NCBI RefSeq assembly: GCF_004851605.1
Contig: NZ_CP031093.1
Location: forward strand, 1,612,001 to 1,676,000
Direction of reading: 5' to 3'
From: Hydrocarboniclastica marina
GTDB lineage: Bacteria; Pseudomonadota; Gammaproteobacteria; Pseudomonadales; Oleiphilaceae
Length of the DNA stretch: 64,000 nucleotides
Position numbers and translations under genes: made by a program. Below, in pieces: positions 52,564 to 58,213 of this stretch. Under the pieces are notes generated by a model. The model did no database searches. It was not told the DNA's origin and saw only the letters and a list, made by a program, of their open reading frames with translations. Every line of letters starts with the position of its first letter. Positions within the stretch are counted from its first letter, which is position 1.

Positions 52564-54240
52564 ATGGCTTTCGACCACCGCAAGTATCGCCCGTTTACGC
52601 CCATCCGTAAGACAGACCGTCGCTGGCCCGACCGCGTTATCGAGCGCGCGCCGACCTGGTGCGCGGTGGATCTGCGCGACGGTAATCAGGCGCTGGTGAA
52701 GCCAATGAATATCCATCAGAAGCAGCGTCTTTTCGATCTTCTCGTAAAACTGGGTTTCAAACAGATCGAGATCGGGTTTCCCTCTGCCAGCCAACCCGAC
52801 TTCGACTTCTGCCGCAAGCTGATCGAGGAAGACCGGGTGCCGGAAGATGTCCAGATTCAGGCATTGACCCAGGCCCGCCCAGAGCTGATCGCGCGTACCT
52901 ACGAAGCGCTCAAGGGCGCCAGGAAAGCCATCGTTCATGTCTATAATTCGACCTCTACGGTGCAGCGTGAGCAGGTCTTCAATCTTGATCGTGCCGGTAT
53001 CTGTGACATTGCCCGCAAAGGGGCGGAGATGGTGCGCGACCACGCGCGCGACTACCCAGACACAGACTGGACCTTCCAATACTCACCGGAAAGCTTCACC
53101 GGGACCGAACTGGACTTCGCCAAGGAAGTCGTGGACGCGGTGACGGACGTATGGCGGCCGGACCAGGGTCAGAAAGTTATCCTGAATCTGCCCGCAACCG
53201 TAGAGATGGCGTCGCCGAATGTGTTTGCCGACCAGATCGAGTGGATTTGCGACAATATCAATTACCGCGAACATTTGAGTATCAGCGTGCACACCCATAA
53301 CGATCGTGGTTGCGGTGTCGCGGCAGCGGAGCTGGCGGTGATGGCCGGGGCTGACCGGGTTGAAGGCACGTTGCTGGGTAACGGCGAGCGCACCGGTAAC
53401 ATGGACCTGGTGACCATGGCCATGAACCTGTACTCCCAAGGCATTGATCCGGAGGTGGACCTTTCCGGTATGGCGGAGATCATCGAGACGGTCGAAGCCT
53501 GTACCGAGATAAGCACTCATCCCCGTCACGCCTACGCCGGTGAGCTGGTCTTTACGGCCTTCTCGGGAAGCCACCAGGATGCCATCCGCAAGTGTCTTTC
53601 ACGGCGCAAGGACGGCGATGTCTGGAACGTTGCCTATCTGCCGATCGACCCACGCGACCTGGGTCGCAGGTACGAGGAGGTGGTAAGGATCAACAGTCAG
53701 TCCGGTAAGGGCGGTGTCGCCCACGTGCTGGAACGCGACTACGACATAAGTTTGCCGCGCTGGTTACAGATCGAGTTTGCCCGCGTCGTCCAGAAGGAAG
53801 CCGAAGGCGAGGGTGGTGAGATCGACTCCTTCAGTATTCACAAACTGTTCGACAGGGATTACTTGCAGGTGCCGAAGGGCTGGCGGCTTCGCACCTACGA
53901 CCTGCATCGGACAGATGCAGGCGTGCAGGCCAGGATAGAGTTCGGTAACGGCACCAGCTCAGTCCTGAACGGTCAGGGGCAGGGGGCACTTGAGGCCTTG
54001 GCGGAAGCGCTTGAGAAACGATACGGCGTTAAAATAGTGATCGAAGCCTACGATGAATTTGCCCTTGGGGAAGGAACCAGCGCCAATGCCATGGCCTGTA
54101 TTCGGGCGCAGATCGATGGCGAGCTCTATAGCGCCGCGGCGTTAGCCGAGGATACAACATCAGCCAACCTGCAGGCGCTCCTCTCGGCGGTGGCGCGCAA
54201 GGTTGAAGCCGCCGCGGTGGATACCGCCGCCGTAGGCTGA
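52564..54240 (+). CDS. leuA: 2-isopropylmalate synthase
   Basis: First committed step of leucine synthesis: acetyl-CoA plus 2-ketoisovalerate. 558 residues, the longer LeuA form. TIM barrel with WCAVDLRDGNQALVKPM (metal and catalytic Arg), EIGFPSASQPDFDF, SVHTHNDRGCGVAAAELAVMAG (metal His pair), GNGERTGNMD; the C-terminal regulatory domain (from about 440) should confer leucine feedback. AGAGGA precedes the ATG. Divergent from the Lrp-like gene, 224 bases apart. Confidence 0.96.
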   Translation: MAFDHRKYRPFTPIRKTDRRWPDRVIERAPTWCAVDLRDGNQALVKPMNIHQKQRLFDLLVKLGFKQIEIGFPSASQPDFDFCRKLIEEDRVPEDVQIQALTQARPELIARTYEALKGARKAIVHVYNSTSTVQREQVFNLDRAGICDIARKGAEMVRDHARDYPDTDWTFQYSPESFTGTELDFAKEVVDAVTDVWRPDQGQKVILNLPATVEMASPNVFADQIEWICDNINYREHLSISVHTHNDRGCGVAAAELAVMAGADRVEGTLLGNGERTGNMDLVTMAMNLYSQGIDPEVDLSGMAEIIETVEACTEISTHPRHAYAGELVFTAFSGSHQDAIRKCLSRRKDGDVWNVAYLPIDPRDLGRRYEEVVRINSQSGKGGVAHVLERDYDISLPRWLQIEFARVVQKEAEGEGGEIDSFSIHKLFDRDYLQVPKGWRLRTYDLHRTDAGVQARIEFGNGTSSVLNGQGQGALEALAEALEKRYGVKIVIEAYDEFALGEGTSANAMACIRAQIDGELYSAAALAEDTTSANLQALLSAVARKVEAAAVDTAAVG

Positions 54241-54304: not shown

Positions 54305-56554
54305 TTATCTGAGGGAGGCGCGCTTCTTTCGGCCTTGTGTTTTCTGCTGTTCCCGGGCCGCCAGAACATATGCGTATATCCGGCGTACGTCGCGGGCAAA
54401 GTTCTGGACGGAGAAATCGCGGGCGAACTCCCGCGCGTTCTTGCTCAGTTTGTCTCTCAGCTCATCGTCTTGCAGCAGCTCCGTGACTTTGGCCAGCCAC
54501 TTGTTCTGATCTTCGACTGTTTTGAAACCGTTTAGCCCCTCTTTCACCACATCATCAATGCCGCTGGACCTCACTGCCACGACGGGTAGACCCGCCGCCA
54601 TCGCCTCAAGGATGACCATGCCCTGGGTCTCGGACTTGGAGGCGAACAAAAAAGCGTGACCCAGCTGGTAGTAGGCACAGATATCATCGGGCGCTACGCT
54701 ACCGACCAGTGTCACCACCCTACTCAGACCCAAGTCATCAATTCGGCGTTGTAGCCTGTCCCGATCGCTGCCATCGCCAATGATAAGGAATCGAAACGGA
54801 ACCGGGCTGTTCTGATAGAGGGTGCGTGCGGCAGCCAACATGAACTCAATATTTTTTTCTCTGCTGAGCCTGGACACGCTGATCAGTACGCGCTCGCCTT
54901 TGAGGTTGAGTGACGCCCGGAGGCTCGTGAGTTTTTCAGGGTCTACCTGTTGAAACCGGTCAAAATCGATACCGGTAGGCTGGACGAAGATGTTGGTGCG
55001 TACGCCCAGCACACGCAGGTATTCTTCGGCGGAGTATGTCGGGACGATTACGCCGTCGCATTTGTTGGCAAATCGCTTGATCAGGTAGTGCGAGATCAGA
55101 TTGCGAAAGAGCAGGCCCGGCAGCGGAACGAAGTGCGCATAGTGCTCCAGGCGTGTGTGGTAGGTGTAGACCACCGGCACGCGACGTCGCCGTGCAATCC
55201 AGATACCCAGGCTGCCTAGCCAGAAAGGATGGTGAACATGAACAATGTCTGGGTTAAATTCTGCCGCGGCACGACGCAAACGGGGGTGAAAAATATTGGC
55301 GAGGCGGAACTCCTGCTGCTCGCCGAAGGCAAGTAGGGAGGTGGCACGTACCACTTCGTCATTTTCCGGCTTCTGGCCTTTATAGCTGGGGGCGATGATG
55401 AGGACTCTCTGACCGAGTTCCACCAGGCCCTGTCGCAAACGTTCAATCGAAATCGGAACGCCGCCGATAAAAGGGAGGTAGTTATTGGTCAGTAAGGCGA
55501 CTTTAAGGGGCTTTTCGAGAAAGGGGCCAGGGTCCAGGTCGAAATTGGGGTAGTAGTCGCGCTCCTCGAAAATGAGCTGATGGAGCTTGATCGCCACTAC
55601 GATCAATATGCATACGAGAAGTATGAAGTTGTGGTAGCCGACGTAAAAGAGCGAGTGGATGAAGAACCACAAGCTCTCCAGGGTCTTGAAGACGGTGTGT
55701 TGACCGATGTTCAGCGGCTCAAGCTGGATCTTTGCCGTGTCGCCGTCAACCGTCACAGTGACGAAATGATAGAAGCTTTCGTCATCATTTATGACGAGGC
55801 CACCCGCGCCACCCGTCGTAACGTAGATCGTGCCATCCCGCTCAATGCGTTGATACAGCGAGAGGTTCGCGGAAAAAACCGCGTCTACGGGATACTGCTG
55901 GATGAGGTCGATCAAACCTCTGCGAAACTCAGAATCGGCAATGTAGTGTTCGTCGCCGTAGAGAAGCGTTTCTTCATGAGTCTGGTAGACCGGATGCCCA
56001 AGGAACAGGAAGGTATTATCCGCTGTATTACCCGCGAGTTGTTCGTCCAGCCAGCGCAGCTGCCAGCCGCTGGGCGTCTTGCCCGTGGAATCCAGGAAAA
56101 TAAAGCGACTGTTGCCGGCGGTGAAACTGTAAAAGTAGGGTCCGTAATGCTCGTAAAAGCGGAAGCTGCCAAAATTGCTGAACTCGTTCTCGCCGAAGGT
56201 GAGCACATACGGAACGTCGAGATGGCTCAGGGTGCGGTTGAGCGCGCGGTACTTGTCCTCACCGCCGTTACTGACGGCGTTGCCGGCGGACACGACAAAG
56301 TCGACCCCAGCTGTGTTGAGCATGGGTACGATTTTGCGTTCATAAATCCCGACTGAATTGTTGATGTTACCGACAACCGCAAACCGGTATTGGTCTCGAC
56401 CGGCGAGATCAGTCTGTATCTGTTCAACCTGTTCACTGTGGACCGAATCGAAATCCTGCTCAAAGAAATTGAGATAGATCTTGTAGCCGATGAGTGCAAG
56501 CACGACGACAAGGTTGATGTAGAAAACCCATTTCAGGTAGTTACGCCCGCCCAT
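54305..56554 (-). CDS. Membrane-anchored pseudo-metallophosphoesterase / GT4 glycosyltransferase fusion
   Basis: 749 residues. An N-terminal transmembrane helix (about 9-30) leads to a calcineurin-like phosphoesterase domain (about 55-285), a second helix (about 300-325), then a GT-B glycosyltransferase of family 4 (about 350-735). The phosphoesterase motifs are degenerate: VGNIN for GDxH, GNAVSNG for GDxxDNG, GENE for GNHD/E, SANLSLY for SGHxHxY; only H187 of GHPVY is kept. N63, N92, N123 and N230 replace ligands, so catalysis is unlikely. The GT4 half is intact: FIGGVPISIERL, SVSRLSREKNIE and SKSETQGMVILEAMAAGLP. Similar GT4 domains glucosylate diacylglycerol or phosphatidylinositol. Overlaps by 14 bases with the upstream LPG-synthase-type gene. 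The lipid acceptor is inferred. Confidence 0.82.
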   Translation of the reverse strand: MGGRNYLKWVFYINLVVVLALIGYKIYLNFFEQDFDSVHSEQVEQIQTDLAGRDQYRFAVVGNINNSVGIYERKIVPMLNTAGVDFVVSAGNAVSNGGEDKYRALNRTLSHLDVPYVLTFGENEFSNFGSFRFYEHYGPYFYSFTAGNSRFIFLDSTGKTPSGWQLRWLDEQLAGNTADNTFLFLGHPVYQTHEETLLYGDEHYIADSEFRRGLIDLIQQYPVDAVFSANLSLYQRIERDGTIYVTTGGAGGLVINDDESFYHFVTVTVDGDTAKIQLEPLNIGQHTVFKTLESLWFFIHSLFYVGYHNFILLVCILIVVAIKLHQLIFEERDYYPNFDLDPGPFLEKPLKVALLTNNYLPFIGGVPISIERLRQGLVELGQRVLIIAPSYKGQKPENDEVVRATSLLAFGEQQEFRLANIFHPRLRRAAAEFNPDIVHVHHPFWLGSLGIWIARRRRVPVVYTYHTRLEHYAHFVPLPGLLFRNLISHYLIKRFANKCDGVIVPTYSAEEYLRVLGVRTNIFVQPTGIDFDRFQQVDPEKLTSLRASLNLKGERVLISVSRLSREKNIEFMLAAARTLYQNSPVPFRFLIIGDGSDRDRLQRRIDDLGLSRVVTLVGSVAPDDICAYYQLGHAFLFASKSETQGMVILEAMAAGLPVVAVRSSGIDDVVKEGLNGFKTVEDQNKWLAKVTELLQDDELRDKLSKNAREFARDFSVQNFARDVRRIYAYVLAAREQQKTQGRKKRASLR

Positions 56555-57611
56555 GCATGCTCCTCGTCCGCATCAGTTCGGCCTGGGTCACGAATACACC
56601 GATCAACATGCCCAGGTAGATCGTCAGCAGTCGCCACGCAACCGTAACCAGGACAAGATGATTACCGCTCAGAACTCCGCTGAAGAAATGCCCGAATACG
56701 CCTTCCGCTATACCGGACGCTCCAGGTGTAGGGGAGAAGTACATAATAAAGGTCGTAATCACCAACAGGCCGACAACATTGAGGTAAGAAACATCATAAC
56801 CGAGTGCCTGCATGAGCAGGGCCGGGAAACTGAACAGGCTGAGCAAGAACACGACGGTAAATATGACGGAGAGCAAGACATCACCGGGCGCTCCTTTTCT
56901 GTACGCTGCGAAACTATGGGCAAATCTCAGCATCTCCCGCTTGCTTTTGAAACGCCAGTGCATCTGACGATCGGTGTTGATCAGGTTCACCCGATGAAGC
57001 GCGTTAATAATGAGCGTCAGGGGGGGGAGCAACCAGCGGGTACGTAGTAGCAGAATCGCGAAAAAGCCCAGATACAACGTGATGAAGACTGCGAGGTAAG
57101 CGGCGATTTGTCCACTGATGGCACTGTTTTCCAAAGATTCCAGGCTAAGTAGAAAAAGAGGTGTTGCAACAAATATAAATACAACCGCAAGCAGTGTTCG
57201 TATTGTCGTGGCCGCGGTTGCGGTGCCCAGCGGTATTCCCTGGCGTTGCATGTACCAGATCTGGGCGAATCCGCCGCCGGTCGCCATCGGTGTGACGTTG
57301 GAGAAAAAGATGTTTATAAACACGAGTCGGAAGACTTTTCCCCGGGACATACGGTGGCCGAGCGCGCGCAGCGTAAAGTGCAGACGCAGACCGTCGGCCA
57401 CGTAATAGACGATCAGCAGCAGCAGAACCCAAAGCAGAAAGGGAAAGGAGACAAGTCGCCAGTCGAAAGAGAAGCTGCGTTCGGCAAATTGCGCATATAT
57501 AACGTAAACGCCAGCGCTACTCAGAAGGATAAACAGAATTGTGAACAGGACCAGACGCTTGAAGGGTATCGCGCGCAGGCCGCTACTTGAAGGTGACGTG
57601 TTGGGGTCCAT
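56541..57611 (-). CDS. LPG-synthase-type integral membrane protein (UPF0104/AglD-like)
   Basis: 356 residues with seven or eight transmembrane helices (for example about 19-41, 54-73, 95-107, 130-155 and 162-187). Contains the family cores FFSNVTPMATGGGFAQIWYM and SPTPGASGIAEGVF. The family (flippase-like part of MprF) moves lipids across the inner membrane or has regulatory roles. It lacks the MprF aminoacyltransferase domain, so simple lysyl-lipid synthesis is not supported. It is the upstream member of a two-gene unit with the GT4 fusion, suggesting synthesis plus translocation of a glycolipid. ATG at 57611. Confidence 0.85.
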   Translation of the reverse strand: MDPNTSPSSSGLRAIPFKRLVLFTILFILLSSAGVYVIYAQFAERSFSFDWRLVSFPFLLWVLLLLIVYYVADGLRLHFTLRALGHRMSRGKVFRLVFINIFFSNVTPMATGGGFAQIWYMQRQGIPLGTATAATTIRTLLAVVFIFVATPLFLLSLESLENSAISGQIAAYLAVFITLYLGFFAILLLRTRWLLPPLTLIINALHRVNLINTDRQMHWRFKSKREMLRFAHSFAAYRKGAPGDVLLSVIFTVVFLLSLFSFPALLMQALGYDVSYLNVVGLLVITTFIMYFSPTPGASGIAEGVFGHFFSGVLSGNHLVLVTVAWRLLTIYLGMLIGVFVTQAELMRTRSMHGRA

Positions 57612-57784: not shown

Positions 57785-58213
57785 GTGACGATCTGGCATA
57801 GCAAGCCCACGATAGAGCAACTGACGGCTTCGTCCCAGCAGACCCTGGTCAGCCATCTGGGCATTGAATTACTTGAGCTTGGCGACGACTTCCTGAGCGG
57901 GCGTATGCCCGTCGATAAGCGGACGATTCAGCCGGCGGGCATTCTTCACGGCGGTGCCTCCGTAGTACTCGCTGAAACCCTTGGCAGTATCGCCGCCAAT
58001 CTATGCCTGAAGAAGCCCGACACGATGGCGGTAGGGCTCGATATTAACGCCAATCACGTACGCCCCATGATGCAGGGCTGGGTGTACGGCTTTGCCAGGC
58101 CGCTGCACATAGGCGGCTCGACCCAGCTTTGGGAAATCAGGATTGTGGACGAGGATGATCGTCTGGTCTGTATTTCCCGTTTGACCATGGCGGTTGTGCC
58201 GCGTCGGAACTGA
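57785..58213 (+). CDS. PaaI-family thioesterase (YdiI/EntH type)
   Basis: 142 residues, hotdog fold. Signature ILHGGASVVLAETLGSIAANL has HGG and the catalytic Glu, which marks the YdiI/EntH/4-hydroxybenzoyl-CoA (Arthrobacter) branch acting on aromatic or DHNA-type CoA thioesters. The start is GTG at 57785 after GGAGAG. Upstream is the divergent membrane-protein gene; downstream is a tandem repeat and arfB. Confidence 0.88.
   Translation: MTIWHSKPTIEQLTASSQQTLVSHLGIELLELGDDFLSGRMPVDKRTIQPAGILHGGASVVLAETLGSIAANLCLKKPDTMAVGLDINANHVRPMMQGWVYGFARPLHIGGSTQLWEIRIVDEDDRLVCISRLTMAVVPRRN

Follow-up and report, generated by a model that had tools for sequence, protein, structure and literature searches.

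A stretch of 64,000 nucleotides from Hydrocarboniclastica marina (contig NZ_CP031093.1, positions 1,612,001 to 1,676,000; hereafter, the window) encodes a 749-residue protein, here called W, in which a calcineurin-like phosphoesterase domain that has lost its metal site is fused to a GT4 glycosyltransferase domain; directly upstream lies the gene for a membrane protein, F, of the LPG_synthase_TM family. Comparison of 29 W sequences indicates that this is a real and conserved fusion, whose parts are of known kinds, while their combination, and the exchange of F for a second putative translocator with a VTT domain, appear to be new to us. We propose, at about even chances, that F and W form a two-gene glycolipid module, in which a lipid would be glycosylated on the cytoplasmic side and translocated outward by F or its VTT counterpart, with the metal-less domain of W acting as a periplasmic binding module. 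To our knowledge, the proteins that carry bacterial glycolipids over the inner membrane, and the cargo of the bacterial LPG_synthase_TM and TVP38-like VTT proteins, are largely open questions.

The features of the locus, in window coordinates, are as follows (TM, transmembrane).

54305..56554, minus strand: W, 749 amino acids, a TM/pseudo-metallophosphoesterase/TM/GT4 fusion (open reading frame, Pfam, 29 full-length homologues including the window's own).
56541..57611, minus strand: F, 356 amino acids, LPG_synthase_TM, the family of the MprF flippase domain (Pfam, TIGR00374).
56471..56539, minus strand: TM helix 1 of W, residues ~6-28 (hydropathy peak at 6-24; helix at 4-29 in a low-confidence model).
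55685..56407, minus strand: calcineurin-like (purple-acid-phosphatase-like) domain of W without the metal site, residues 50-290 (Pfam PF00149, PDB matches, hhalign, ligand counts, dN/dS as defined below).
55568..55684, minus strand: aromatic linker and TM helix 2 of W, residues 291-329 (hydropathy peak at 310-328; model helices at 289-302 and 307-329, mostly of low confidence).
54356..55507, minus strand: GT4 domain of W, residues 350-733, with E642-x7-E650 (Pfam, NCBIfam, model matches to GT4 structures).

Architecture and distribution of the fusion

Open reading frames, Pfam matches and hydropathy agree with the layout drawn by an earlier note on this DNA, which placed the calcineurin-like domain between two TM helices, the GT4 domain after them and an overlapping membrane protein upstream. 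F and W lie on the minus strand, F upstream, and their reading frames share 14 nucleotides. The two hydropathy peaks of W bracket the phosphoesterase domain; the homologue L040 is an exception, its first peak staying under the hydropathy threshold. Residues 50-290 are thus predicted to be probably extracytoplasmic, and the GT4 domain cytoplasmic. F matches LPG_synthase_TM (PF03706) with 130.1 bits (cut-off 33.4) and the flippase-like domain family TIGR00374 with 96 bits, above its cut-off of 43.2; beyond LPG_synthase_TM it has zero Pfam matches above cut-off, and an aminoacyltransferase domain was not found. On one side of the pair is a thioesterase-superfamily gene (57785-58213) that diverges from it, and on the other a gene of the 2-isopropylmalate-synthase type (52564-54240) that converges on it; given these orientations, neither is obviously part of the pair.

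The W set comprises 29 full-length proteins including the window's own, with 26 in the main alignment and tree and three added from a family sample described below. Ten of the 29 come from 57 other related genomes, all ten falling within the 36 that belong to the same family; named genome contigs gave three, a class-wide sample six, a phylum-wide sample two, plasmid records four and the family sample three. A model of the phosphoesterase domain found nine matches in 369 genomes of the class at E<=1e-8, seven strong (the window's genome included) and two weak, and eight in 398 genomes of the phylum, seven strong and one weak. The weak matches (L049, L050 and L072) are frames of 258-328 amino acids that have no GT4 domain and retain most metal ligands; together with L001 they are the four phosphoesterases used for comparison. 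Among 72,556 plasmid records, 33 matched the domain, 30 of them from Pseudosulfitobacter, which is represented here by one record (L074). The W proteins seen belong to Gammaproteobacteria and to roseobacter plasmids.

A phosphoesterase domain without its metal site

W matches the Metallophos model PF00149 with 24.3-26.1 bits (cut-off 21.5), which places it in the calcineurin-like superfamily, and ten of 14 homologous domains match the same model at E<=1. Further, purple acid phosphatases of the PDB match the domain with an E value of 4e-5, and hhalign joins it to an alignment of the four phosphoesterases with a probability of 99.2% at 24% identity. The ligand set of active metallophosphoesterases (D, D, N, H, H, H) was not found in the W proteins: D63, D92, N122 and H230 are each retained in 0/29, and H232 in 3/29. 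Position 63 is instead Asn in 26 and Glu in three, and position 92 is Asn throughout. The register was anchored on Pfam, on L072 (the closest homologue with most of the site), on the other phosphoesterases and, for the C-terminal half, on purple acid phosphatases. The earlier note had read N63, N92, N123, N230 and S232 as substitutions at ligand positions; these agree in register with L072 and, in the C-terminal half, with the purple acid phosphatases, and no W protein with full ligands, the kind of homologue which the note had named as telling against it, was found among the 29. Since the metal site is gone in the entire set, its loss is older than all W proteins seen.

Two positions call for more caution. 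The "H" of the GDxH motif is N65 in W, but because L072, a homologue with most of the metal site, has Arg there (GDTR), the loss of this residue alone says little. The earlier note had also taken H187 for the only ligand kept, and this did not hold up: His occupies position 187 in 14/29. A MAFFT alignment that takes the Pro of H-x-P as its anchor shows His at 186 in each of the four phosphoesterases, three of which carry a second His at 187; in the W proteins, position 186 is occupied by Gly, Ala or Gln (His in 0/29). The purple acid phosphatases back the register at 186 as well, whereas two ungapped profile alignments to L072, one of them by hhalign, place the ligand His at 187. Hence, H187 is probably not a ligand position, with the choice between registers 186 and 187 not wholly settled.

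The metal-less domain is under purifying selection, as is the GT4 domain, and does not have the look of decay. Of the 26 rows of the main alignment, 25 or more share the same residue in 46 of 241 columns of the phosphoesterase-like domain and in 96 of 381 columns of the GT4 domain. Ratios of nonsynonymous to synonymous change (dN/dS), from a simple counting method applied to seven pairs, were 0.046-0.194 for the former and 0.044-0.169 for the latter, with dS up to 1.04, near saturation, in one of the pairs. Within the motifs that once formed the metal site, several positions never vary (G62, N66, S67, G91, N92, E124, T247 and G251, 29/29) or hardly do (N65 and G249, 28/29), and this suggests a remade pocket.

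An intact GT4 domain resembling glycerolipid enzymes

The GT4 domain of W is intact in its motifs, as the earlier note had it. The E-x7-E pair, E642 and E650, is present in 29/29 W proteins, and the GG loop is G364-G365, with Gly at 365 in 29/29 and at 364 in 22/29. The Pfam models PF13439 and PF00534 are matched above cut-off, with up to 128 bits, which makes W a member of the GT4 family, and among the structural matches of the full-chain model are GT4 structures, at Z scores as high as 29.8. Of the NCBIfam models, the top match is alpha-monoglucosyldiacylglycerol synthase (NF049988; 208.6 bits against an equivalog cut-off of 400, E 1.9e-61, W residues 351-733), followed by the N-acetylglucosamine (GlcNAc)-phosphatidylglycerol synthase GpgS (NF053787; 124.4 bits, cut-off 480). 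These sub-cut-off scores mean that the GT4 domain of W resembles glycerolipid glycosyltransferases and falls in neither equivalog; the GT4 domain matches nearly the whole length of NF049988, but the TM helices and the phosphoesterase domain of W lie outside that match. F likewise scores 33.8 bits against the GpgF model (NF053789), whose cut-off is 320, and the GpgS and GpgF models span neither the TM nor the phosphoesterase parts of W.

Two families of putative translocators beside W

The earlier note had coupled W to a flippase-like membrane partner. In its general form this claim stands, as a putative translocator lies beside W at 28 of the 29 loci; in its particular form it does not, for F is absent beside nine, eight of which have a VTT gene and one neither. 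F is found directly upstream of W on the same strand at 20 loci (19 of the 26 in the main set, and G822), with a spacing of -23 to +14 nucleotides in the 19 that were measured, which leaves no room for a gene between them. At eight loci a gene with the VTT domain, of the DedA superfamily, stands beside W instead; four of these match PF09335 with 84.8, 86.6, 87.2 and 89.3 bits (cut-off 33.9), and the other four were identified by BLAST similarity. Given that VTT accounts for eight of the nine loci without F and that its superfamily has lipid-translocating members, the general idea of a translocator beside W is strengthened.

Whole-genome searches (E<=1e-5) recovered F in 6/6 genomes of the F type, and in 0/7 of the VTT type (two of them small, possibly incomplete assemblies), 0/1 with a lone W and 0/26 without W; at the eighth VTT-type locus, the Halomonas plasmid record L075, the search for F covered 16 kb. 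At least two changes of the VTT label are required on the tree of W proteins, and well-supported branches force them: one of the two VTT groups nests together with an F-type Methylophaga (99/98), and the second stands on its own (100/99). The tree is compatible with a double gain as well as with one gain followed by a return. A prediction made in advance, that F would be present in G818 and G822, the two W genomes lacking VTT, and absent from G841, held for G822 and G841 and failed for G818. On these sequences, the partner of W is exchangeable between F and VTT. Next to one and the same enzyme, members of two unrelated families stand in for each other.

The association of VTT with lipid-type glycosyltransferases extends beyond W. 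We scored VTT at E<=1e-30 in 51 related genomes of the family of G421; the named loci, together with synteny to the locus on the Halomonas plasmid, make this family probably Halomonadaceae. VTT occurs in 29 of the 51, in four together with W and in 25 with a plain GT4 gene whose product is 58-100% identical to the query and, where compared, 33-34% identical to the GT4 domain of W. VTT is tied to this plain lipid-type GT4 in 25/25 of the family genomes that hold it, none of the 51 having the plain GT4 (>=58%) without VTT; weaker GT4 matches (<=36%) do occur in several family genomes, some lacking VTT. Because the genomes are related to one another, a Fisher test of this association exaggerates their independence. 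The plain GT4 and VTT genes are convergent and within 400 nucleotides of each other in 24 of the 25, and 3.4 kb apart in G833. In G421, W occupies the place that the plain GT4 has in the W-less G328, with four flanking gene families common to both.

The pair of plain GT4 and VTT is itself a candidate glycolipid synthase/translocator pair (L095 5170-6495 and L096 4909-6444, with their VTT neighbours). Another plain GT4 adjoins a gene for a 750-residue protein (L097 6911-11150, L098 5936-9480), both copies of which lack Pfam matches at E<=0.001, the L098 copy also lacking NCBIfam matches at E<=1e-15; in L097, a VTT gene lies in the same stretch and on the same strand.

Possible function of the F-W module

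In the glycolipid module that we propose, W would be anchored in the inner membrane, with its cytoplasmic GT4 domain using a nucleotide-sugar donor to glycosylate a lipid of the inner leaflet. The likeliest reaction would be the transfer of glucose to diacylglycerol, with phosphatidylglycerol as the second choice of acceptor. The product might then be carried or scrambled to the periplasmic leaflet by F or, in other lineages, by a protein of the VTT/DedA type. The metal-less phosphoesterase domain might have been kept as a periplasmic binding module for a hypothetical ligand, tying synthesis to transport; most likely it would recognise a headgroup, either on the flipped product or on a phospholipid, or else dock the translocator.

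Several parallels are suggested by known systems. The GpgSDF system of Pseudomonas aeruginosa, which makes glucosamine (GlcN)-phosphatidylglycerol, resembles F-W in combining, in one predicted operon, a GT4 lipid glycosyltransferase with a predicted flippase of the UPF0104/COG0392 type; there gpgF lies beside the GT4 gene gpgS, and its mutant apparently had less GlcN-phosphatidylglycerol in a preliminary analysis (PMC12713373). Unlike W, GpgS is predicted to be cytoplasmic and to lack TM helices, and the operon also has a deacetylase gene, gpgD (PMC12713373); between F and W, at the 19 loci measured, there is no room for a gene. The UPF0104 family is described in PMC5898192 as one of predicted flippases beside glycosyltransferases. 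F shares with MprF the family of the flippase domain (PF03706), but differs in having no detected aminoacyltransferase domain and in being partnered with a glycosyltransferase; MprF itself is reported in PMC11980842 as a promiscuous scramblase that acts on several lipids in vitro. As for VTT, PMC10127716 describes the eukaryotic homologues of DedA as scramblases and certain bacterial members as undecaprenyl-phosphate flippases. The W fusion was not found described in the literature searched, which left most subscription journals outside and is thus weak evidence.

A more specific version of this module, which we offer tentatively, gives W a built-in sensor of the outer leaflet: the former metal pocket (N65, N66, S67, N92 and E124) would, after flipping, bind the product or a phospholipid by its headgroup and relay a signal to the GT4 domain by way of the aromatic linker and TM helix 2, with LPG_synthase_TM and VTT/DedA proteins acting as interchangeable translocators of the same glycolipid. 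The conserved pseudo-phosphoesterase would then be a candidate for leaflet-to-leaflet feedback within a biosynthetic enzyme. YejM (PbgA) has a periplasmic domain with a catalytically dead hydrolase fold. As predicted for W, YejM sits in the membrane and exposes a large domain to the periplasm, and it exerts feedback on lipid synthesis; in the model presented in PMC13333357, lipopolysaccharide that accumulates in the periplasmic leaflet binds YejM. It is a different protein that works via LapB and FtsH (PMC13333357), and the likeness is one of working principle only.

A number of observations weigh against the proposed glycolipid module. The VTT genes all lie opposite in strand to W (convergent in five of eight, divergent in three), and so are not co-transcribed with it. 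The W of G818 (L103 4695-6974) has neither F nor VTT in a 13-kb stretch. The GT4 domain, as noted above, scores below both equivalog cut-offs, and the topology of W was read from hydropathy and end charges alone. Further, AlphaFold models of the full chain and of the phosphoesterase-like domain, each built from four alignment rows, reached a mean pLDDT of 65.6 and 47.9, respectively, and no phosphoesterase was among the Foldseek matches listed (50 per model). For the full chain, the 50 Foldseek and 50 VIA matches listed were all glycosyltransferase structures by title, and the domain model (four rows, pLDDT 47.9) had zero Foldseek matches at E<=0.001; models this poor neither back nor contradict the calcineurin fold. 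Finally, glycan-type genes occur near W, namely two further GT4 genes with an asparagine-synthase gene (L066 122-3977) and genes of the ExoD family (L105 4741-5352, L084 13497-14129), and these neighbours appear to favour somewhat a role in surface glycans.

One alternative is accordingly that W takes as its substrate a surface-glycan intermediate carried on undecaprenyl or polyprenyl, the polyprenyl lipid being moved by F or VTT. Besides the glycan-type neighbours, this would fit the bacterial DedA proteins that flip undecaprenyl-phosphate (PMC10127716) and the archaeal UPF0104 domains that are fused to, or lie beside, glycosylation enzymes (PMC5898192). However, no O-antigen or capsule cluster was seen among the annotated neighbours on three roseobacter plasmids, where F-W stands alone as a cassette, and the top models for the GT4 domain are glycerolipid enzymes; we regard this alternative as unlikely.

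It is equally unlikely, in our estimate, that the metal-less domain is a mere structural spacer or dimerisation module and that the proximity of F or VTT reflects a favourable insertion locus rather than function. The transcription of VTT from the opposite strand and the solitary W of G818 would be in keeping with this, but it sits poorly with the invariant or nearly invariant residues of the former metal-site motifs, with the 51 family genomes, where every genome that has VTT (E<=1e-30) also has the plain GT4 or W, and with the two or more changes of partner label on the tree of W proteins.

The least probable reading, and one we consider doubtful, draws on the PlcP-Agt pathway. PlcP is a phosphoesterase. 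W might be a comparable remodelling fusion for phosphate starvation, in which the phosphoesterase domain would free diacylglycerol from phospholipids for the GT4 domain to glycosylate; PlcP and Agt form such a pathway in Pseudomonas aeruginosa, joining phospholipid degradation to a glycolipid glycosyltransferase (PMC8528852), and the GT4 domain of W is nearest to a glucosyl-diacylglycerol synthase model, but PlcP and Agt are separate proteins, of which PlcP supplies most of the diacylglycerol (PMC8528852), whereas in W the metal site is gone in 29/29 proteins, the domain is apparently outside, apart from the GT4 domain, and Pho-box-like sites (<=3 mismatches, sought in the window) numbered three against 4.4 expected, with none near F (57600). 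Dde_3613 of Desulfovibrio was dropped as a fused precedent; the available text calls it an Agt homologue and, in that portion, leaves a fusion unmentioned.

Mobility and genomic neighbourhood

As a cassette of two genes, F-W is carried by a conjugative plasmid of Sulfitobacter faviae, a Pseudosulfitobacter plasmid and an Alloyangia plasmid. The Pseudosulfitobacter cassette (L074 6101-12535) lies between IS3 and IS110 transposase genes.

Genes for cation transporters recur near W (L073 5821-7759, L084 6377-7342, L105 8708-9682 and L039 2909-3862). They include a calcium/sodium antiporter, annotated as such in L073 and L084 and recognised by Pfam in L105, and CorA, annotated in L073 and recognised by Pfam in L039.

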